Assembly: GCA_003352285.1 (NCBI GenBank)
Contig: QQVN01000002.1
Span: forward strand, 186,001 to 250,000
Direction: 5' to 3'
Length of the DNA: 64,000 nucleotides
Origin: Thermoproteota archaeon
GTDB lineage: Archaea > Thermoproteota > Nitrososphaeria > Nitrososphaerales > Nitrosopumilaceae
Under the pieces are notes generated by a model that did not search any database, was not told the DNA's origin, and saw nothing but the letters and a program-made list of their open reading frames with translations. Shown one piece after another: positions 39,884 to 50,673 of this stretch. Position numbers and translations under genes: made by a program. The first letter of the stretch is position 1; the number at the start of each line of letters is the position of its first letter.

Positions 39884-40045
39884 ATGTCAGTAGATGTAAC
39901 ATGTGGAAAATGCGGTGAAAAGATCACAAGTATGAAAATGCTCAAACCTCTAAAAGATGTCATGAATCCATACAGTGGAAAATGTCCTTCTTGTGGACAA
40001 GCACTTTCAACATCTGAATTTTCATTAGATGTACAAGAAAACTGA
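39884..40045 (+). CDS. Small zinc-ribbon protein, 53 aa
   Basis: The 53 residues have two CxxC pairs (CGKC near the N-terminus and CPSC about 27 residues later), so one zinc ribbon. No other domain is present. It lies between the DUF35 gene and the GATC array; the stop codon overlaps the first GATC of that region. Small zinc ribbons in archaea often bind RNA or proteins. Composition and the paired Cys support a real gene. Confidence 0.75.
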   Translation: MSVDVTCGKCGEKITSMKMLKPLKDVMNPYSGKCPSCGQALSTSEFSLDVQEN

Positions 40046-40072
40046 TCTAGTTTTACAAAAATTATCAATTTT

Positions 40073-40180
40073 GATCCAAAAACTGATCCAGTTTCCGAAA
40101 AATGATCTAATTAGATCCAAAATTGATCCAGTTGGATCAAAAACTGATCTTATTGGATCCAAAAATGATGCAGTCATAAA
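40073..40180. promoter_or_regulatory. Helically phased GATC array and TATA element before the NrdD-derived regulator
   Basis: GATC occurs at 40073, 40085, 40104, 40114, 40125, 40135, 40146 and 40156, with a GATG variant at 40167. From 40104 to 40167 the spacing alternates 10 and 11 bp, one helical turn. Most copies read (C/T)(T/G)GATC(C/T)A. The array ends beside a CATAAAT element at about 40174, roughly 31 nt before the regulator's ATG. This looks like a multi-site operator, most simply for autoregulation. Confidence 0.72.
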
Positions 40181-40206
40181 TCTTATTTACTCCTAACCTT
40201 GTAGAC

Positions 40207-42306
40207 ATGGATATGGAACTGAGCGAGGGGGTAGCGGAGCCAAAGAGGGGCGGCATACTGCAATCCACATCAAAACGTGTACGGATGATCTTTTCCGTTA
40301 TGGCCAGTCCAAACCGTATAGACATTTTAAGAATTTTAAATTCCAAGGGTCCTTTAACTTATTCAGAATTAAAGTCCCTTGCTGGATTCAAATCAAAAAA
40401 AGAGAGTGGTAAATTTGCATACCATCTTAGAAAATTATTGAGACAATCCCTTGTTGCATTAAACAAATCTGAGAGAAGATACACCATTACAAATTTGGGC
40501 AAATTAGTTCTAAGTCTTGCCAGACAGATTGAAGAACGCTCCATCATCGAAAGCGGCAAAATGTATGTTAGAACATCACATGAATCAATTGAGGAATTTA
40601 ATTCTCATAAAATTATACAATCCCTTGTCCGTGAGGGAAGCTTACCATTAGAGTTAGCACAAAAAATTACAGAAGAAGTTGAAAACAGAATTTACAAATA
40701 TCAAACAACATATCTTACCGGCTCTCTGATCCGTGAAATGGTTAACTCTGTTTTATTGGAACATGGTCATGAGGAATATCGCAATAAACTGGCCAGACTT
40801 GGACTGCCAGTATTTGATGTGCAAGAAATGCTCTCAAATATTGATAATGTCGATAATGGCGCAGAAGGCCTACTCTACAAGACAGGCCAAGTAGTCTTTG
40901 CTGAGCATTTACTCACAAATACCCTGCCTAAGGACGTGGCAGATTCACACTTGTCAGGAGACCTACACATTACGAATCCTGGAATTTGGTCACTCTTGCC
41001 TGATGCAATTTTTGTAAATATTAAGGAATTAATCGATGATGGCCTTAACCTTGGAGGAAAATTCCTAGATGTCTCACGAATACCATCTGCCAAAAACCTT
41101 GATGATCTAACCTCAACACTTTCCATGTTGATTTCACTCATCTCAAAAGAAGCCTCACAAGAGGTTGTAATGGATGGATTGGCGCAATTACTGACAAAAC
41201 ATGCAAAGAATTCTGGAGACATTGAGCAAAAACTTGCAGATGCGTTTGCAACTGCTTCAACTGTTTCAAAGTATAACAAAAATCCAACAATTGTTTCATT
41301 TAGAGTCCAACTTGGCTCTGATGCTAAGATAAACTCTGCAATTATCACCGCATACAAAAACTATGCAAGAATTACACCTATTCCAAAGATTGGTTTGATT
41401 ATTGATTATGAAAAAGGAAAATTGTCTGATGTCTCTGCTGATCTTGCAGAAATTGTAACACTTGGTGGCAAAGTAATCTTCTCTCAAGGATTAGTATCTA
41501 ACAAGGGAATTGCCAACGTACAAACAAAGAACTCTACTCCTCTTTCCATTAATCTTCATTCAATTTCAATTAACTTGCCACGACTTGCATTTGAGTCAAA
41601 CAAGGATGAGACGTACTTTAGAGCAAGATTAGCTCTTCTAATGAAACCTGCCTTGTCATCTATGGCATTAAGAAAGAAAGACATATCTGATCTAACTCGA
41701 CGTGGTCTTAATCCAATTCTTGCAAAGAATACACAGTACATGCAACGTGGTTCTGCTTCAATTGTATTGAATCTAGTCGGACTAAATGAAGCAGTTTTTA
41801 ACATTCTTGGTTACCAAGACAACAAAGAAGGTCGTGACATCTTACACAAAGTAATTGAAACTGCAGTTGAAGTTGCAAAGAAAAAAGGAAAAGAACTCGG
41901 TGATGATGTTAGAATATGCATGACAGAAAGTGACGGCTCTATAAGATTTTCAACACTTGATGGAGAAAAATACGGAAAGAATTCTGTACTAAAAGATCTT
42001 GACTCTGATTCTTACTCTGAAGGATTCACACTTAATGCATCTGAGGTAGATGGACTAACTGCAAAGAGTGAGCAAATCTCTGAATGCAACAAGCTTGCAA
42101 AAATGCTCAATGGAGGATTACTTGTTAGTCTTCAGATCGACGATGATGCAAAGATTGATGATATCAAAAAGGCAATAGAAAAGACTGGAGAATTAACATC
42201 CTCCTTCAAACCAGTAAAACACGTTTCAATTTGTGGCGAATGTGGCTTTAAAGATGAGAAATTAGGCGACAAATGTCCTTCCTGCAAGTCACCTTACATT
42301 ATCTGA
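40207..42306 (+). CDS. HTH plus ATP-cone plus NrdD-derived regulator next to ribonucleotide reductase
   Basis: The 699 residues hold a winged helix (about 25-105, RMIFSVMASPNRIDILRILNSK), an ATP-cone (about 115-210, MYVRTSHESIEEFNSHKIIQSLVREG), and a long domain resembling anaerobic ribonucleotide reductase (NrdD). It ends with a zinc site CGECG...CPSC that matches the NrdD C-terminus. I do not see the glycyl-radical site RVxGY, so the NrdD-like part is probably inactive. ATP-cones read ATP/dATP. The simple reading is a dNTP-responsive regulator of the B12-type reductase gene directly downstream. The first ATG after the TATA is used as start. Confidence 0.82.
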   Translation: MDMELSEGVAEPKRGGILQSTSKRVRMIFSVMASPNRIDILRILNSKGPLTYSELKSLAGFKSKKESGKFAYHLRKLLRQSLVALNKSERRYTITNLGKLVLSLARQIEERSIIESGKMYVRTSHESIEEFNSHKIIQSLVREGSLPLELAQKITEEVENRIYKYQTTYLTGSLIREMVNSVLLEHGHEEYRNKLARLGLPVFDVQEMLSNIDNVDNGAEGLLYKTGQVVFAEHLLTNTLPKDVADSHLSGDLHITNPGIWSLLPDAIFVNIKELIDDGLNLGGKFLDVSRIPSAKNLDDLTSTLSMLISLISKEASQEVVMDGLAQLLTKHAKNSGDIEQKLADAFATASTVSKYNKNPTIVSFRVQLGSDAKINSAIITAYKNYARITPIPKIGLIIDYEKGKLSDVSADLAEIVTLGGKVIFSQGLVSNKGIANVQTKNSTPLSINLHSISINLPRLAFESNKDETYFRARLALLMKPALSSMALRKKDISDLTRRGLNPILAKNTQYMQRGSASIVLNLVGLNEAVFNILGYQDNKEGRDILHKVIETAVEVAKKKGKELGDDVRICMTESDGSIRFSTLDGEKYGKNSVLKDLDSDSYSEGFTLNASEVDGLTAKSEQISECNKLAKMLNGGLLVSLQIDDDAKIDDIKKAIEKTGELTSSFKPVKHVSICGECGFKDEKLGDKCPSCKSPYII

Positions 42307-42338
42307 AATTCGTAAATTCATAATTCTTTTCGTCATTT

Positions 42339-42502
42339 TACGATCAAATTTTAGATCCTATCAAAAATTTTTCAAAGTCGAAAATCGTACCGTTATGAAG
42401 TTCATAGTACCGGTGTGAATAATTTTAAATCAAAAATCGATCCTGATGAATTTTTTTAGGCCACACAAGTTATAACCACAGTAAATCATACCACTGGAGG
42501 GG
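42339..42502. promoter_or_regulatory. nrdJ control region with GATC motifs, repeat and RBS
   Basis: GATC occurs at 42342, 42354 and 42439, in contexts like those in the array before the regulator. ATGAAGTTCAT forms a small palindrome (42395-42405) between two GTACCG copies (42387, 42407). GTTATAAC near 42469 would place the transcript start near 42495. GGAGGGGAG (42496-42504) is a strong ribosome-binding site before the TTG start, unlike the leaderless genes around it. Confidence 0.55.
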
Positions 42503-42512
42503 AGATTATAGA

Positions 42513-45161
42513 TTGGATAATTCACAAATAGAAAGTTCTATCGGAGAGATCCGCAAGCGAAATGGATCGGTTGTGGCTTTCAATAAAGATAAAATTTCAA
42601 ATGCCATTTACAAGGCATTAGCAGCCACGTCTGAAGCCGACCGTGGTTTAGCAGATCAACTCGCAGAGGGAGTACTAAGAAAATTATTTGAACAAGGATT
42701 TTCTGCTTCACGACCTCCAAGCGTTGAAGATATTCAGGACATGGTAGAGTCAACTTTGATCGAGAACGGTCACAGTGAAATCGCCAAGGCCTACATTTTG
42801 TATAGACATGAACGTAGAAAAGTTAGAGATGAGAAATTCAAGGTTCTTAACACAAAGACATTAGATCCAGTAGCAAAGAAATTTGATCTAAACTGCCTGA
42901 GAGTTTTGGCTTCAAGATATCTCCTACGAAATAACAAAAATGAGATTACCGAAAGTCCCAGTCAAATGTTTGAGCGTGTGGCCATCTTAATTGGCATTGG
43001 AGATTTAATGTACGATGCAGAACTCTTTGCAAAAGATGGTAACAAAAGACAAAACCTCGAAGAGGCAGAAGCATATCTAGATAAACTAGACAGCTTTGAT
43101 TACAAATTCAAGATAGGTGATTACTATCTTAACAAATGGCACTTTAGAGCCATGATTAACCACTACATAACTTTGGCAAACAAAGGTCAGATGAAGCTAA
43201 GCTTCAAAGATCTTCTGACAATGTTAGCTGCAAAGAAACTAGACAGATATGCAGACAGAATCAAAGAATACTATGATCTGATGGTTTCACAAGACTTTCT
43301 GCCAAATTCACCAACAATGATGAACGCTGGTGGACGTTTGGGACAACTATCTGCATGCTTTGTCTTAGACATGCCAGACGATATGGAAAGAATCATGAAA
43401 TCAACATCTGATGCAGCACTAATCTTCAAATCTGGAGGTGGAGTTGGAATCAACTACTCTGATCTTAGACAAGAAGGTGACATTGTAGCATCAACATCTG
43501 GTGTTGCTTCAGGTCCTGTATCCTTCATGAATATTATCAATACAGTCACAGAAGTGGTAAAACAAGGTGGAAAACGCCGTGGTGCCAACATGGGAATTAT
43601 CGAAGCATGGCATCCTGATGTTGAAAAATTCATCACAAACAAGACTCAGCCAGGCGTGCTTGAGAATTTCAATGTAAGTGTTGGAATCTGGGAAGATTTC
43701 TGGCATTCACTTGTAAATACCACAGACGGAAAGTACATGCTTAGAAGCTCACGCAACAGAGCACCAGTTAGAGAAATTAATGCACATCAACTAATTGATC
43801 TAATTGCACTGTCTGCATGGAAGAGTGCCGAACCTGGTTTGATCTTCTTTGATCAAATCAACAAATACAATGTATTTGCAAAAGCAAGAGGCGGACCAAT
43901 CCGTGCAACAAATCCTTGTGGAGAACAAAGCTTGTATCCATACGAATCATGCAACTTGGGTTCCATCAATCTGTCAAATCTTGTAAAACGCAAAGCAGAT
44001 GGTGAATACGAATTTGATTGGCAAAGATATGAAGAAACAATTCGAAAGACAACTCGATTCCTTGACAGCGTCATCGATGTCAATCTGTATCCAGTAAAAG
44101 ACATTGATACTGCATCAAAAGAATCAAGAAGAATTGGATTGGGTGTAATGGGAGTTGCAGATCTACTCTACAAACTACGAATCCCATACAACTCTAAAGA
44201 AGGATATGAAATTCAATCAAAGCTAGCAGAAGCTCTCTCATACTATTCAATGGAAGAGAGTGTTGCATTAGCAAAGTCACGTGGAGAATTCCCACTTTGC
44301 TCAAAGACAGAATATCCAGAAGGAAAGATTCCAATTGCTGGATACTATGAACGTCCAAAAGAGCAACACAGCTTTGAATGGGATGCATTAATCCAAAAGA
44401 TCCAAAAGCACGGAATTAGAAATGTACTGACAACAACTGTCGCTCCCACTGGAACACTATCAATGATTGCAGACTGTTCTAATGGAATGGAACCAATGTT
44501 TGCACTAGTGTTTGAAAAGAGAGTAACTGTTGGTCGCTTCTTTTACACAAACAAAATCATTGAGCAAGCACTCAAAGACAATGGATTGTACAGCGAAGAG
44601 ATACTTGAAAAAATTGCTGACAACTATGGCTCACTCAAAGGAATTCCAGAAATTCCAGAGTGGATGCAAAACATCTTTGTCACAGCAATGGATATTCATT
44701 GGGCTGATCATCTTATGGCCCAAGGAGTATGGCAAGAGTGGATTGGAAATGCAATCGCTAAAACAATTAACATGCCATACGATGTGACTGCAGATGACGT
44801 CAAAGCAGCATATCTCCTAGCACATGAGCTTGGCTTGAAAGGCATCACAGTTTATCGTGATGGTTCCAGACACAAACAAGTTCTTCACATGACTAGTGAA
44901 AAGGCTGAAAAAATATTCACAGTAACTCCAAGCAACTATGTCACTGACTATGTGTCAAATGCACTAGCAAACCAATACGTAAAAACCCAAGTACAAGACG
45001 CCTTGAAACTCAAAACACCAGAAGAGACGCCTGTTGAGCAGAATCTATCTGAGGAGACATCTGAGGAAAACCTTTGCCCAACATGCAAGAACAATTTGGT
45101 GTTCGTTGAGGGTTGCAGTATCTGCATAGAATGCGGATTCAGCGGCTGTACATCAGGCTAG
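42513..45161 (+). CDS. nrdJ: B12-dependent ribonucleotide reductase (class II)
   Basis: The 882-residue protein has an N-terminal ATP-cone (about 10-100, VVAFNKDKISNAIYKAL) followed by the reductase barrel. Active-site landmarks: NPCGEQSLYPYESCNLG with the radical Cys region, SACFVLDMPDD, and APTGTLSMIADCSNGMEP. The C-terminus ends in CPTC...CIECGFSGC, Cys pairs for re-reduction of the active site. It makes dNTPs with adenosylcobalamin and needs no oxygen or iron radical subunit. TTG start with a strong RBS. It is probably regulated by the upstream gene. Confidence 0.95.
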   Translation: MDNSQIESSIGEIRKRNGSVVAFNKDKISNAIYKALAATSEADRGLADQLAEGVLRKLFEQGFSASRPPSVEDIQDMVESTLIENGHSEIAKAYILYRHERRKVRDEKFKVLNTKTLDPVAKKFDLNCLRVLASRYLLRNNKNEITESPSQMFERVAILIGIGDLMYDAELFAKDGNKRQNLEEAEAYLDKLDSFDYKFKIGDYYLNKWHFRAMINHYITLANKGQMKLSFKDLLTMLAAKKLDRYADRIKEYYDLMVSQDFLPNSPTMMNAGGRLGQLSACFVLDMPDDMERIMKSTSDAALIFKSGGGVGINYSDLRQEGDIVASTSGVASGPVSFMNIINTVTEVVKQGGKRRGANMGIIEAWHPDVEKFITNKTQPGVLENFNVSVGIWEDFWHSLVNTTDGKYMLRSSRNRAPVREINAHQLIDLIALSAWKSAEPGLIFFDQINKYNVFAKARGGPIRATNPCGEQSLYPYESCNLGSINLSNLVKRKADGEYEFDWQRYEETIRKTTRFLDSVIDVNLYPVKDIDTASKESRRIGLGVMGVADLLYKLRIPYNSKEGYEIQSKLAEALSYYSMEESVALAKSRGEFPLCSKTEYPEGKIPIAGYYERPKEQHSFEWDALIQKIQKHGIRNVLTTTVAPTGTLSMIADCSNGMEPMFALVFEKRVTVGRFFYTNKIIEQALKDNGLYSEEILEKIADNYGSLKGIPEIPEWMQNIFVTAMDIHWADHLMAQGVWQEWIGNAIAKTINMPYDVTADDVKAAYLLAHELGLKGITVYRDGSRHKQVLHMTSEKAEKIFTVTPSNYVTDYVSNALANQYVKTQVQDALKLKTPEETPVEQNLSEETSEENLCPTCKNNLVFVEGCSICIECGFSGCTSG

Positions 45162-45185
45162 AAAACAAGCATTAGAAACATTACA

Positions 45186-45278
45186 GTTATCGTATGTAAC
45201 GAGGTAGTGGGGACAATACTTCCTCCATAAAAGAAGTAGAACCTCCAAGATATCGATCTCGTTATGTATAATGATAAC
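45186..45278 (+). ncRNA. Structured RNA element, copy A of a tandem pair
   Basis: Copy A folds by eye into an outer stem TAACGAG/CTCGTTA (45197-45203 with 45258-45264), an inner stem GGGG/CCTC (45209-45212 with 45242-45245), and an apical hairpin ACTTC/GAAGT (45218-45222 with 45233-45237). GTTATC/GATAAC (45186-45191 with 45273-45278) can close it further. The 5' loop GGTAGTG and a run of 21 nt at 45238-45258 are shared exactly or nearly with copy B, 83 nt downstream. No coding frame explains it. I do not recognise a known RNA family. Confidence 0.6.
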
Positions 45279-45348
45279 AGACCAGGGTAGTGAGGACAAT
45301 GTTCCTTATTATGGAAGGACAGAACCTCCAAGATATCGATCCTGGTCT
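45279..45348 (+). ncRNA. Structured RNA element, copy B of a tandem pair
   Basis: Copy B folds by eye into AGACCAGG/CCTGGTCT (45279-45286 with 45341-45348), GAGG/CCTC (45292-45295 with 45325-45328), and a bulged hairpin starting GTTCCTT and ending AAGGAC (45301-45307 with 45315-45320). Compared with copy A, the outer stem differs at several positions but stays paired, and G-U becomes A-U in the inner stem. The loop sequences do not change. This is the pattern of a conserved RNA structure. It lies between nrdJ and the gene at 45457. Confidence 0.6.
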
Positions 45349-45456
45349 CTAACCCATCATATCAACTGACTGTAACTGTAATAAACTATCCCAATCTATA
45401 TTCTCGATTAAAAGTATCACAACTTTTTTACCTCTCTTTTTTCACAGCCAAGAACT

Positions 45457-46569
45457 GTGAATAAGATCATTATTGGCGGCATCTCTGCTGCTGTAATTAT
45501 TGGAATTGCTGCAGCATTTGCATTAATGCCATCCCAACCAAATTCCAATCAATCAACTAATGAAAAATTAGGATTGGTCATCAATACACCATTAACAACT
45601 ACAACCCTGCCAGAATTAGATGAGATCTATTCACAAGCAGCTTCCACAGGCATTGGAAGAAGTAATGTCTACATGTTTTGGGATATGATAGAACCTGAAA
45701 AGGGTCAGTTTGATTGGAAGCAGTCAGACATTATCATGAGCTTTAATAAAAAAAATAATCTCAAAGTTACTCTTTACTTTTCAATTGTAAACGGAAAAAC
45801 ACTTGGACCATTTCCTGACTGGATAGGAAAACCAAGCTTGATCACAGTATCAGAAGACAATGTGGTAAATGTTCTTGATGCAGTACTATCAAGATATGAC
45901 ATCATTGATACCCTGATTATATCTGGTGACACAGATGAGCACTTTAGATACAAAGAAGGAGAAATTCCAATCTATCGAGACCTCTTTAACAATGTCTATG
46001 ATAGAATCAAGGAAAAACACCCAGATGTAAAAATTGGAAACTCTTTTGCCTTGCATAATGTTCTCAACAAAAATATCGAAAATGTAGTAAAGGAATTGTC
46101 CATAGGCGATTTTGTTGCATTTAGCTATTTCCCAGTAGATGCATTAAATGAGATAGTAAAAACTCCATATCAAGCAAGAGCAGACCTAGACAAGGCATTT
46201 GAGCTTGCACAAAACAAGCAGGTTGCACTCTTTGAGATAAGCTGGAGTACATCTAGTCACGTAGAAGGAAACGAATTTGATCAAACACAATTTGTAAATC
46301 AAGTGTACGAATTTTTCAACGAAAATGAAAATCAAATCGAGTTTGTAACATGGTATAGGATGTATGATAGACCAGATGGTAGCTGTATAATTAATGCAGA
46401 AGAACTAGAGGGTGCAGTTTCAGTAGGTGGAGGTTCAGGTTTTGGTAGTAGTGAATTTGTTGCAGAACGACTAGGAAATTATATCTGTAGTGCAGGTCTG
46501 ATAAGTGAAGATGGAAACGAAAAACCATCATGGAATGAATTTAAAAAAGAGATCTCAGCGTTGTCTTAA
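45457..46569 (+). CDS. Membrane-anchored TIM-barrel, glycoside-hydrolase-like protein
   Basis: GTG start; 370 residues with an N-terminal helix (about 4-24) as anchor or signal. The rest reads as a TIM barrel of glycoside-hydrolase style: SNVYMFWDMIEPEKGQFDW, LIISGDTDEHFRYKEGEIPIYRDLF, and VALFEISWSTSSHVEG, where Glu near the end of strands could be catalytic. The substrate is unknown. It may act on surface glycans. The next gene, Nep1, starts 3 bp after its stop, although the functions do not match. Confidence 0.8.
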   Translation: MNKIIIGGISAAVIIGIAAAFALMPSQPNSNQSTNEKLGLVINTPLTTTTLPELDEIYSQAASTGIGRSNVYMFWDMIEPEKGQFDWKQSDIIMSFNKKNNLKVTLYFSIVNGKTLGPFPDWIGKPSLITVSEDNVVNVLDAVLSRYDIIDTLIISGDTDEHFRYKEGEIPIYRDLFNNVYDRIKEKHPDVKIGNSFALHNVLNKNIENVVKELSIGDFVAFSYFPVDALNEIVKTPYQARADLDKAFELAQNKQVALFEISWSTSSHVEGNEFDQTQFVNQVYEFFNENENQIEFVTWYRMYDRPDGSCIINAEELEGAVSVGGGSGFGSSEFVAERLGNYICSAGLISEDGNEKPSWNEFKKEISALS

Positions 46570-46571
46570 AC

Positions 46572-47237
46572 ATGCTGTCATTAATAATTGCAGAATCATC
46601 ACTTGAGCTAGTCCCACGAGAATTACAATCACATATCTCAATTAAATCTCATGCAAAAAAATTAGGAAAATATCCCTCAGAGATATTATTGGATAATTCA
46701 TGGCATTTTGCTGCAATGAAAGGACTAGAAAATGAAATTAAACGCGGCAGGCCAGATATTGTTCATCTGTGTTTGCTAGCTGCAACAAGCATTCCATTGT
46801 ACCATGAAAATGAAATTGAAATTTACGTGCATACAGTTGATAACAAAGTTATCATTCTTGGAGATAACGTAAGACTACCAAAATCTTATCACAGATTTGC
46901 AGGAATTATAGAAAAATTGTTCAAAGACAAAGTAATCAAAACAGATGATTCTGTATTGATGGAGCTAAAAAAGATGACATTTGATGAATTAATCGAAATG
47001 ATAGAGCCAAAAAGTGTAATTGCATTATCACCAGATGGAATGCCAAGCAATTACCAATCAGTAGGCAAAGAACTAGATGATTCATGTCTTATAGTCGGTG
47101 GTTTCCAAAAAGGAGCATTTTCAGATGAAATAACTCAACACATTGATAGGACCTACTCGATAGGGGAGCAATCATTTGAAGCTCATGTTGTGATTAGTAG
47201 GATCCTATACGAGTATGAAAAAACAATTTTTATGTAG
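46572..47237 (+). CDS. nep1: 16S rRNA pseudouridine N1-methyltransferase Nep1
   Basis: The 221 residues have the Nep1/Emg1 SPOUT pattern: LSLIIAESSLELVPRELQSH, ILLDNSWHFAAMKGLENEIKRGRPDIVHLCLLAATSIPLY, NVRLPKSYHRFAGIIEKLF, and a C-terminal VGGFQKGAFSDEI knot region. It methylates N1 of a pseudouridine in small-subunit rRNA and helps ribosome assembly. It is followed by tRNA-Gly and ribosome-related genes. The gap to the preceding gene is 3 bp. Confidence 0.95.
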   Translation: MLSLIIAESSLELVPRELQSHISIKSHAKKLGKYPSEILLDNSWHFAAMKGLENEIKRGRPDIVHLCLLAATSIPLYHENEIEIYVHTVDNKVIILGDNVRLPKSYHRFAGIIEKLFKDKVIKTDDSVLMELKKMTFDELIEMIEPKSVIALSPDGMPSNYQSVGKELDDSCLIVGGFQKGAFSDEITQHIDRTYSIGEQSFEAHVVISRILYEYEKTIFM

Positions 47238-47259
47238 GCTGTAGAGTTTGCTTCCTTAT

Positions 47260-47333
47260 GCAGTCATAGTATAGCCTGGTTAGTATTCGGGGTTTCCAAC
47301 CCTGTGACGCGGGTTCGAATCCCGCTGACTGCA
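47260..47333 (+). tRNA. tRNA-Gly (anticodon TCC)
   Basis: The acceptor stem GCAGTCA/TGACTGC closes a cloverleaf. The D arm contains AGCCTGGTTAGT, the anticodon stem is CGGGG/CCCTG with loop TTTCCAA (anticodon TCC), and the T arm is GCGGG-TTCGAAT-CCCGC. The discriminator base is A at 47333. CCA is not encoded. No intron is visible. It lies between Nep1 and the Rpp21 gene. Confidence 0.95.
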
Positions 47334-47384
47334 TACTAAATTTTGAATAGATCAATTTTTTAAATTATAGAATATTGTTTTTGT

Positions 47385-47693
47385 GTGAAGTTAGATCTTA
47401 GAGAAATAGCATTAAACCGTATGAGGACGTTAGTTCAAATTGCAATTGACAATGCAAAGACTGATCCAGTGCTCTCTCAAAGACAGGCATTACTTGCTAG
47501 AAAAATAAGCATGAGGCATAAAATCCGGATGCCATATGAGCTTAGAATGGCCTTTTGCAAAAAATGTAAAAGCTTTATCGCACCGGGAATAAATTCAAAG
47601 ATTCGGGTAGGAAGATCTTCAATTAAATCAGTAAGAATAACTTGCAACTTTTGTGGCCATACTTACAGAAAAATTATTCCTCCTCGATCTTGA
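47385..47693 (+). CDS. rnp4: RNase P protein component 4 (Rpp21/Rpr2)
   Basis: GTG start; 102 residues. Two N-terminal helices (LREIALNRMRTLVQIAIDNAK, LARKISMRHKIRMP) are followed by the zinc ribbon CKKCKSF..CNFCGHTYRK, the Rpp21 signature. It is a protein subunit of RNase P that helps trim tRNA 5' ends. It lies just downstream of a tRNA gene. A short transcript start may overlap the tRNA region. Confidence 0.93.
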   Translation: MKLDLREIALNRMRTLVQIAIDNAKTDPVLSQRQALLARKISMRHKIRMPYELRMAFCKKCKSFIAPGINSKIRVGRSSIKSVRITCNFCGHTYRKIIPPRS

Positions 47694-47760
47694 GTCTATT
47701 ATAACCAACTAGGCACAATCCCTCAATGATTTATAAGACCATACGAGAGTTTTTCACTCT

Positions 47761-48213
47761 ATGGCAAAGGTCTATGACGTACCAGCTGATATGTTGATTA
47801 GCAGATTAGCAGATATTCTAAAAAATGAAGATATTCCAGCACCAGAATGGGCCTCATTTGTTAAGACCGGAGCACATGCTGACAAACCTCCTCAAGACAA
47901 AGATTGGTGGCATACTAGATGTGCATCGATTTTAAGAAAAATCTACTTGCACGGACCAGTTGGTGTTAATGAACTATGTAAGGAATACGGCGGAGGAAAG
48001 CCATTGGGATATGGAGCAAGACACCACAAAGATGCAAGTGGCGCAATTATTAGAAATGCAATTCACGGATTAGAAAAATTAGGTTATCTTGATAAAGTAG
48101 AGAAGAAAGGAAGAGTTGCATCAAAACAAGGAATGCAAAAACTAGACAAGCTAGCAACTGAAATCCTCAAAGAATTATCTGCTGAAAAACCAGAATTGAA
48201 AGTTTATTCATAG
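47761..48213 (+). CDS. rps19e: Ribosomal protein S19e
   Basis: The 150-residue protein has the S19e pattern: VYDVPADMLISRLADILKNEDIPAPEWASFVKTGAHADKPPQDKDWWHTRCASILRKIYLHGPVGVNELCKEYGG, then HHKDASGAIIRNAIHGLEKLGYL. It is found only in archaea and eukaryotes and is required for small-subunit maturation. PDCD5 follows 7 bp later, a conserved archaeal pairing. Confidence 0.97.
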   Translation: MAKVYDVPADMLISRLADILKNEDIPAPEWASFVKTGAHADKPPQDKDWWHTRCASILRKIYLHGPVGVNELCKEYGGGKPLGYGARHHKDASGAIIRNAIHGLEKLGYLDKVEKKGRVASKQGMQKLDKLATEILKELSAEKPELKVYS

Positions 48214-48220
48214 TGATTAA

Positions 48221-48508
48221 ATGAGTTATCCAAATTCGGATGAATCTGAAAATCAAGACAATCCAAGCGAGGCAGAGATTTCAGCCCAAAAGGAAATCAT
48301 TCTAAAACAAATTCTTGACTCAGAAGCAAGACTTCGCTTAAACAATGTTAGGATGGTTAAACCAGATCTTGCAGGAATGATTGAAAACTATATCATTGGC
48401 ATGGCATCACAGGGAAAGATTAGATCCCCCATCACAGACGATCAGCTAAAACAGATACTATTATCCACCCAGCAACCCAAACGAGATTTCAAGATAAATC
48501 GTCGCTAA
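48221..48508 (+). CDS. PDCD5/TFAR19-family DNA-binding protein
   Basis: The 95-residue, mostly helical protein shows the core QILDSEARLRLNNVRMVKPDLAGMIENYIIGMASQGKIRSPITDDQLKQILL and a basic tail QPKRDFKINRR. Family members bind nucleic acid or chaperonin; the archaeal function is unclear. It is 7 bp after S19e, so the two are probably in one transcript, with a ribosome-linked role. Confidence 0.93.
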   Translation: MSYPNSDESENQDNPSEAEISAQKEIILKQILDSEARLRLNNVRMVKPDLAGMIENYIIGMASQGKIRSPITDDQLKQILLSTQQPKRDFKINRR

Positions 48509-48542
48509 GAAAATATAATTAGGGGAAAATCAGAGTAACCTC

Positions 48543-49613
48543 ATGAAAGCAGTAGTCTATGAAGAATATGCTCCTGATGATAATTATGCTAAAATTCTTA
48601 AAGTAAAAGATATTGATGATCCAAAACCAAAATCAAACGAAGTAGTTTTAAAACTAAAGGCAGCAGCTCTCAATTATAACGATATTTGGGGAATGAGAGG
48701 CGTACCTATTGCAATCCCATTACCACATATTTCTGGTTCTGATGCAGCAGGTGACGTAGTTGCTGTTGGAGAAGATGTTACAAATTTCAAGGTCGGAGAT
48801 AGAGTAGTTTCTCACTCAAATCTTGCATGTAGAGTATGTGAATTATGTACCTCTGGTAGAGAGTATGACTGTACCAAAAGACAAGTCTGGGGATTCCAGA
48901 CAGGTCCATTATGGGGAGCATACAGTGAACTAGTTCATTTACCAGAGACAAACGTTTCAAAAATTCCTGAAGGTGTGTCATATGAAGATGCAGCAGCAGC
49001 TTCCATGACAATTCTAACATCATGGCACATGTTAGTAGGCAGAGCAAAAATCACACCAGGACAAACTGTTCTTATCATGGGTGGTGGTTCTGGAGTAGGA
49101 AGTTTTGGTATTCAAATTGCTAAACTTTACAACTGTACTGTAATTGCAACTGCAAGTCCAGATAAACTGGACAAGTGTAGAGAATTAGGAGCAGATTATG
49201 CAGTAGATCACAGAAAAGATGACTGGAACAAAGAAGTCTATAAAATTACTAAAGAGATTGCATCAAAAACTGGTGTAAGACCAGGAATTGATCTTACCTT
49301 TGATCACATTGGTCAGACTCACTTTAACAAACAATTGACTCTACTAAACTATGGTGGTACCCTAGTTTCTTGTGGAGCAACAACCGGTTATGATGCTCAA
49401 ATTGATCTTAGACACATATTCTTCAAAGGAATCAATGTCTTAGGTTCAACTCAAGGAACAAAAGCAGAGATGGAGCAAGGATTGTACTGGATGGGTAAGG
49501 GCAAGATTAAAGCTGAAATCGATTCAATATACACATTTGAGCAAGCTGCAGAGGCACATACCAAAATGCTTCAAGGTAAATTCTTTGGCAAAATCTTAAT
49601 GAAACCAGAGTAG
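48543..49613 (+). CDS. Zinc-type MDR alcohol dehydrogenase/enoyl reductase-like protein
   Basis: The 356-residue protein is a medium-chain reductase. Structural zinc Cys residues are visible in CRVCELCTSGREYDC (about 97-111), and the NAD(P) site GGGSGVGSFGIQIA is at about 180-193. The usual catalytic-zinc GHE is GSDAAG, so alcohol oxidation may not be its job; some such proteins reduce enoyl- or acryloyl-CoA. I cannot decide the substrate. It is cytoplasmic, alone in its transcription unit or with Sua5 20 bp downstream. Confidence 0.88.
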   Translation: MKAVVYEEYAPDDNYAKILKVKDIDDPKPKSNEVVLKLKAAALNYNDIWGMRGVPIAIPLPHISGSDAAGDVVAVGEDVTNFKVGDRVVSHSNLACRVCELCTSGREYDCTKRQVWGFQTGPLWGAYSELVHLPETNVSKIPEGVSYEDAAAASMTILTSWHMLVGRAKITPGQTVLIMGGGSGVGSFGIQIAKLYNCTVIATASPDKLDKCRELGADYAVDHRKDDWNKEVYKITKEIASKTGVRPGIDLTFDHIGQTHFNKQLTLLNYGGTLVSCGATTGYDAQIDLRHIFFKGINVLGSTQGTKAEMEQGLYWMGKGKIKAEIDSIYTFEQAAEAHTKMLQGKFFGKILMKPE

Positions 49614-49632
49614 TAAAAATAAAAACTAATTC

Positions 49633-50673
49633 TTGTCAAAAACAAAAATAATTAAAATAAATCCAAAGAATCCTCAGATAAACAAAATTCGTCAAGCTGC
49701 ATTAATTATCAAAAACGGTGGAACGGTTGCTTTTCCAACTGAAACTGTTTATGGTCTTGGCGCAAATGCACTAAATACAAAGGCAGTAAAAAAAATTTTC
49801 AAAGCAAAAAAAAGACCTGCTGATAATCCGTTAATTGTTCACATAAACAAGTATGATGATCTGCAAATCCTAACTGACAAAATCCCACCATTAACCAAAA
49901 AAATTACGCGCAAATATTGGCCAGGACCTCTAACAATCCTTGTAAAAAAATCAAAAAATGTACCTGATACTACCACTGGTGGCCAAAAAACAGTAGCAGT
50001 ACGTATTCCCTCAAACAAAATTGCACGATTATTGATAAAAGAATCTGGTGTTCCAGTTGCAGCCCCATCTGCCAATTTATTTGGAAAACCTAGTCCAACT
50101 TCTGCTAAACACGTAATAGATGATCTTTATGGAAGAGTTGATGCCATAATCGATGGAGGTACTACAGACATTGGTCTAGAGTCTACGGTTCTAGACATTA
50201 CAAAAAAAGTTCCAATCTTGTTAAGGCCTGGAAAAATTACAAAAGAGAATCTTCAAGGAATAATAAAAATAAAACTAGATCAAAGCCTTACTGGAAAACG
50301 TACAAAGATTTCAAAGCCAAGATCTCCTGGAATGAAATACAAGCATTATACTCCTAACGCACGAGTAATTTTATTAAAAAACTCTATCAAAAATATTGAT
50401 CAAAGAATTTTAGAGCTTGTCAAAAGGTACCAAAATAAGAAAAAAAGAGTTGGTATAGTTACCACACAGAAAAACAAGAAATACAAATCAAATCTAACTC
50501 TTTTTCTTGGGACAGATCCCAAAGAAATTGCAAAAAATTTGTTTTCTGTATTTCGAAAGTTTGATAGCCAAAAAATTGACATCCTCATAATACAAGAGAT
50601 TGCTGATAATGACTTGGGTTTTGCTATAATGAATAGATTAAACAAGGCAGCATACCAAGTAATCACAAAATAA
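49633..50673 (+). CDS. sua5: Sua5/YrdC-type threonylcarbamoyl-AMP synthase
   Basis: TTG start; 346 residues. The YrdC core (about 1-215) contains KNGGTVAFPTETVYGLGANA, KRPADNPLIVHI, and PVAAPSANLFGKPSPTSA. The C-terminal Sua5 domain (about 220-346) follows SPGMKYKHYTPNARVILL. It makes threonylcarbamoyl-AMP for the t6A modification of tRNA. Length and both domains are intact. The gap to the upstream MDR gene is 19 bp. Confidence 0.95.
   Translation: MSKTKIIKINPKNPQINKIRQAALIIKNGGTVAFPTETVYGLGANALNTKAVKKIFKAKKRPADNPLIVHINKYDDLQILTDKIPPLTKKITRKYWPGPLTILVKKSKNVPDTTTGGQKTVAVRIPSNKIARLLIKESGVPVAAPSANLFGKPSPTSAKHVIDDLYGRVDAIIDGGTTDIGLESTVLDITKKVPILLRPGKITKENLQGIIKIKLDQSLTGKRTKISKPRSPGMKYKHYTPNARVILLKNSIKNIDQRILELVKRYQNKKKRVGIVTTQKNKKYKSNLTLFLGTDPKEIAKNLFSVFRKFDSQKIDILIIQEIADNDLGFAIMNRLNKAAYQVITK

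Follow-up and report, generated by a model that had tools for sequence, protein, structure and literature searches.

The window, a stretch of 64,000 nucleotides from a Nitrosopumilaceae genome (G000, contig C2, positions 186001-250000), contains two copies of a structured RNA directly behind nrdJ. The product of nrdJ is a ribonucleotide reductase by its Pfam domains, as had been proposed; the adenosylcobalamin-dependent (class II) label comes from the preliminary description alone. The next gene, referred to here as GH, has matches in 204 of 250 genomes of the family. The features of the locus are as follows.

42513..45161, + strand: nrdJ, an ORF of 882 aa with the Pfam domains Ribonuc_red_lgC, ATP-cone and Ribonuc_red_lgN and a C-terminal zinc ribbon.
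45155..45404, + strand: ~250 bp that are extra relative to the nearest relative, G001, in the G000/G001 alignment from nrdJ to GH; the ends are ambiguous by a few bases.
45162..45185, + strand: A-rich leader AAAACAAGCATTAGAAACATTACA, common to type 2 RNAs elsewhere.
45186..45278, + strand: 5' domain around copy 1, from the MFE of 45165-45360 and the clamp motif count against shuffles.
45186-45191/45273-45278, + strand: clamp stem GTTATC/GATAAC, which closes the 5' domain and encloses copy 1.
45195..45267, + strand: RNA rod copy 1 (model R1 match of 92.2 bits; pair counts), with the stems P1 45196-45205/45256-45265, P2 45209-45212/45242-45245 and P3 45217-45224/45231-45238.
45278..45350, + strand: RNA rod copy 2 (model R1 match of 92.5 bits; pair counts), with the stems P1 45279-45288/45339-45348, P2 45292-45295/45325-45328 and P3 45300-45307/45314-45321.
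45351..45417, + strand: AU-rich trailer; trailer comparisons between type 1 and type 2 were not significant.
45418..45432, + strand: conserved CACAACTTTTTTACC upstream of GH, found by comparing intergenic regions and present in empty and filled sites.
45457..46569, + strand: GH, a gene for a GH42-like membrane-anchored protein (Pfam PF02449, E 3e-4, just below the cut-off), the conserved neighbour 3' of nrdJ.

The two copies are ~73 nt long, lie 83 nt apart and share one architecture. GGTAGTG is found at 45203-45209 and 45286-45292 and the 21-nt run AGAACCTCCAAGATATCGATC at 45238-45258 and 45321-45341, both with the same spacing of 83 nt. The outer stems differ on both strands yet pair in each copy (TAACGAG/CTCGTTA versus GACCAGG/CCTGGTC), and a G-U pair of the inner stem changes to A-U between the copies. 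On all these points the preliminary description was correct. The interval that it delimited, 45186-45348, is too small in view of the clamp and the extra DNA at ~45155-45404. No third match to the 21-mer with up to 3 mismatches is present in the window, and 100 dinucleotide shuffles gave 0. Neither copy occurs elsewhere in the genome of the window, and the 20-base core of the 21-mer has no match in the genome contig collection.

This RNA, designated type 1, was observed in one further genome, G032, out of 250 from the family and 220 from the class. It occupies the same position there as a single copy, and its P1 is weak, with mostly G-U pairs. In the common fold P1-P2-P3, 93.9% of the cells are paired, against 42-61% with the partners slid. 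Double-sided changes affect 8 of 22 pairs, where shuffling gives 4.3 ± 1.3 (8 is reached in 3 of 500 shuffles), in an alignment of three sequences that includes G032 and takes the other two from one genome, that of the window. The folding z-scores are -3.66 for copy 1, -3.08 for copy 2 and -4.77 for 45165-45360. The single-sequence MFE of copy 2 has its inner part refolded, so the common fold rests on comparison. Selected RNA structure, suspected earlier from constant loops and changing stems, is supported by the covariation and by the better fold of the forward strand described below. With a homologue in G032 and paired changes, the element is neither confined to the strain of the window nor changing at random.

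None of the Rfam 15 covariance models matches the element, consistent with the earlier remark that it belongs to no recognised family. A scan with E up to 1 and permissive filters, which comprised window positions 40000-50000 and eight related loci and covered types 1, 2, 3 and 5 (types are listed below), gave a tRNA-Gly as the sole real match. Exact patterns of types 1, 2 and 3 were not found in viral contigs, and no description of these RNAs was found in a literature search. Some matches proved to be due to chance. The BLAST match in G294 and the match at L002 are antisense to genes, fibrillarin-like in G294 and apparently for an ABC transporter at L002; the R1 match in G118 (30.7 bits) has a broken P3 and overlaps the coding sequence of an opposite-strand gene.

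The space between nrdJ and GH is bimodal in length. Among 110 Nitrosopumilaceae nrdJ-GH intergenic regions, 19 have ~150-400 extra bases and 91 are short (~45-100 nt; four measured at 160-166 nt have a late-starting GH match and are counted as short). In another 20 regions, drawn from other genera, three sites are clearly filled and one, which is GC-rich, is uncertain. The uncertain site (L236, G023:C1:986966-987726) is a GC-rich region behind nrdJ in a GC-rich genome, with a z-score of -0.98. At least seven different RNA types occupy the filled slots. The types below were assigned by eye, and types 4, 5 and 8 are represented by one sequence each.

Type 1: the window and G032.
Type 2: 8 genomes.
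Type 3: 7 genomes, with two loci in G050.
Type 4: G255:C19 (L069).
Type 5: G255:C15 (L052).
Type 6: G072 and G288.
Type 7: G275 and G273.
Type 8: G038.

The G255 assembly has two nrdJ-GH junctions with different inserts, type 4 at L069 and type 5 at L052. The trailer of type 4, not its core, is common with type 3 (z 7.0 against G195). In searches of 250 family genomes with stricter filters, by which weak matches can be lost, models R1, R2 and R3 have matches in 2, 8 and 7 genomes, all just after the nrdJ stop codon.

On the GH side of the slot, CACAACTTTTTTAC (45418-45432 in the window and the same place elsewhere) is strongly conserved across genera, whether the site is filled or empty. This segment is likely to be the promoter of GH, producing a leaderless transcript.

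Covarying pairs across homologues, which the preliminary description had named as one check of its proposal, were found in types 1, 2 and 3. In type 2, 9 pairs show 21 double-change cells against 8.7 ± 2.3 expected (0 of 500 shuffles). The signal in type 3 is weaker but significant, with 6 double changes against 2.4, and the two sequences of type 6 show an exchange of U-A to C-G in P1. As read from the aligned rows, the 3' internal loop of type 2 can form a fourth small stem, leading to a three-way junction. This stem is UCUG/CAGA in G047 and G074, UCUC/GAGA in G192 and UCC/GGA in G190, G151 and G249; it is missing in G209 and G250. A chance repeat followed by drift, with no function, would account for the small number of genomes that carry the RNA and for the decay of some copies; the covariation in three types and the 21 identical bases kept between copies with changed stems make it very unlikely.

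The alignments of types 1-3 fold ~4-10 kcal/mol better on the forward (nrdJ) strand than as the reverse complement. G-U and A-C cells stand at 62:16 on the forward strand and at 18:13 on the reverse strand folded by the same rules, a control included because a fold chosen with RNA rules partly builds G-U in. Full inserts have forward z-scores mostly of about -2.3 to -6.4, with near-background values in G249, G250, one G050 locus and G023, and several reverse strands fold well too. Some copies look decayed: G249 is without one P1 strand, and G250 and G032 are poorly paired. Computational analysis shows that types 1-3 are paired, covarying structures on the nrdJ strand, restricted to the position directly after nrdJ.

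Some of the types share a frame. The leader of the window resembles that of type 2 in four of five type 2 rows (z 6.5-9.8, 0 of 300 shuffles); the remaining row, G047, is not significant. Types 1, 2, 7 and 8 have a UUAUC...GAUAA (or GAUGA) stem that starts 8-38 nt after the stop codon, where about 2% is expected for each. This stem is a small hairpin in types 2 and 7; in type 1 it surrounds copy 1 and in type 8 another rod. Some type 3 RNAs have a related stem that closes their first domain. Model R1 does not detect type 2, nor does R2 detect type 1, which leaves leader, clamp and topology as the grounds for a shared ancestry of the types. These similarities suggest common descent of the frame, that is, leader and clamp, but do not show it for the cores.

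The slot changes state frequently. Changes between filled and empty number 14 on a tree of the nrdJ 3' part (109 rows, 363 columns, quick search), and 13 on the GH tree and 13 on the nrdJ tree for 68 shared genomes. The flanking genes are inherited vertically while the state of the slot flips often. Close relatives differ: G032 has type 1, G047 has type 2 and G015 is empty. The flanks of filled/empty pairs are overall 92-96% identical in nrdJ and mostly 85-99% identical in GH. For G000/G001 the values are 96% in nrdJ and 93-99% in GH, and for G195/G196 they are 95.6% in nrdJ and 90-99% in GH except for its first 100 nt (82%). Low identity at the start of GH is seen in several filled/empty pairs, and also in two empty genomes (79%); it is a weak hint that an exchanged tract may end at the start of GH. 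A transfer of the RNA together with GH was considered and rejected, as the numbers of changes required on the GH and nrdJ trees are equal and G050 has an RNA without GH.

The comparison of G192 with G045 shows a clean gain or loss of 201 bp with AAC on both sides; the insert ends are ambiguous in other pairs. Such an insertion is what mobile or selfish palindromic DNA would leave, if a MITE-like or IS200/IS605-end-like element inserted behind nrdJ and its hairpins were recognised as single-stranded DNA. Patchy presence, decaying copies and stem-loops with variable stems also agree with this origin. We nevertheless regard it as unlikely. Types 1-3 are found at one site, about once per genome in 250 genomes, unlike dispersed MITEs, and always in the same orientation. 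The forward RNA folds better and favours G-U over A-C, and the insert has no transposase or integrase.

The tandem arrangement is peculiar to the genome of the window. The single copy of G032 resembles copy 1 in its 5' flank and copy 2 in its body and 3' flank. This is as expected if a tandem pair had lost its middle via recombination between the copies; the reverse route, a duplication in the lineage of the window, may also have been taken. The nearest relative, G001, whose nrdJ is 96% identical, has an empty slot. The tandem as a functional unit is not supported, being single in G032, absent in G001 and replaced elsewhere in the slot by unrelated-looking RNAs. The functions proposed for it fare no better. 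For a double sensor, that is, a tandem riboswitch responding to a metabolite, a pair of copies in which the loops are constant and the stems vary would be suitable. It is extremely improbable, since the tandem occurs in one genome, is absent from the sister genome and is replaced by other RNAs elsewhere, and since its position is not that of a 5' UTR near a start codon: 107 nt separate the end of copy 2 from GH, and the likely promoter of GH lies in this interval. The proposal of a guide RNA pair gains no support. A search of the genome for near-perfect antisense matches to the constant segment found none; targets of CCTCCAAGATATCGATC there are 3-mismatch matches only, close to the control level. 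As to C/D or H/ACA guides, there is no Rfam match near the gathering score, and convincing boxes (RUGAUGA/CUGA, or a terminal ACA with a k-turn) were not seen by eye. The reading of the tandem as a processing site likewise remains without support.

Taken together, the RNA of the window is probably the tandem form of an accessory structured RNA from the 3' region of nrdJ, horizontally exchanged and belonging to a highly diverged set of RNAs in one slot of Nitrosopumilaceae. Judged by position and strand, the RNA would most simply come from the nrdJ 3' UTR. The RNA would be transcribed as this 3' UTR, or from a start just behind nrdJ, and then cut or trimmed to a stable RNA. Recombination, with anchors in the 3' end of nrdJ and in the conserved sequence before the next gene, would exchange it between strains. 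The most likely mechanism would be a stable RNA that acts in trans or protects the mRNA, with variable modules binding a protein or RNA partner. Because some copies are decayed and relatives are empty, the RNA is dispensable, and the decayed-looking copies do not suit an important function. A more specific version, in which the slot is a site for exchange, is possible and is offered tentatively: leader and UUAUC...GAUAA clamp would be the scaffold for replaceable modules, and the whole an allelic RNA cassette circulating in ammonia-oxidising archaea, for example in defence, immunity to it or competition.

The insert could also be an ordinary, fast-evolving structure of the nrdJ 3' UTR, a terminator or mRNA stabiliser that is repeatedly lost and gives no separate RNA product. 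The insert always follows the nrdJ stop codon closely and on the nrdJ strand, which is compatible with this, as is the fact that most genomes do without it. This is rather unlikely: a terminator hairpin would be far smaller than these structures, the loops hold the conserved letters, the T-rich tract before GH is present in empty sites also, and several types replace one another among close relatives.

Small RNAs derived from bacterial 3' UTRs are structured and immediately follow a coding gene, with which they share the strand. The RNAs behind nrdJ are similar in position and structure, a likeness seen here from sequence alone. In hotspots of gene exchange, accessory DNA of different origin is found at one site between conserved, vertically inherited flanks, and recombination exchanges the tract. 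The nrdJ slot likewise has varied accessory DNA at one site between vertical flanks, but in place of genes it carries 150-400 bp that are non-coding and RNA-like. Ammonia-oxidising archaea are among the commonest marine microbes, and to our knowledge their ncRNAs are almost uncharted.

In Weinberg et al. 2010 (PMC2864571), lineage-specific candidate structured RNAs were found by comparative genomics, and one reported motif was thought to act from 3' UTRs. The RNAs of the slot resemble those motifs as covarying intergenic RNAs with no known function. They differ from those motifs, which are single families, in that one slot holds several mutually replacing RNAs; the types scanned have no Rfam match. 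Tan1, an abundant ncRNA of 229 nt in marine group II Euryarchaeota, was found in environmental transcriptomes (PMC5069720). It is also a structured, marine archaeal ncRNA whose role is not known, a likeness by description; it belongs to another phylum and was seen as a transcript.

It would be unusual for one chromosomal slot to hold different covarying RNAs that take each other's place among close relatives. Beyond the two copies first described, it is this wider pattern of interchangeable structured RNAs in one slot that merits following up. Natural filled/empty strain pairs (for example G195/G196 and G000/G001) allow direct testing of the effect of an RNA.

Two nrdJ 3' ends are present in G050, at G050:C6:30000-41563 (L170) and G050:C87:22000-25629 (L171), each followed by a type 3 RNA. 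The genes downstream differ, a pyruvoyl-type arginine decarboxylase-like gene on the other strand versus GH. The pair may represent a second nrdJ or a mixed MAG.
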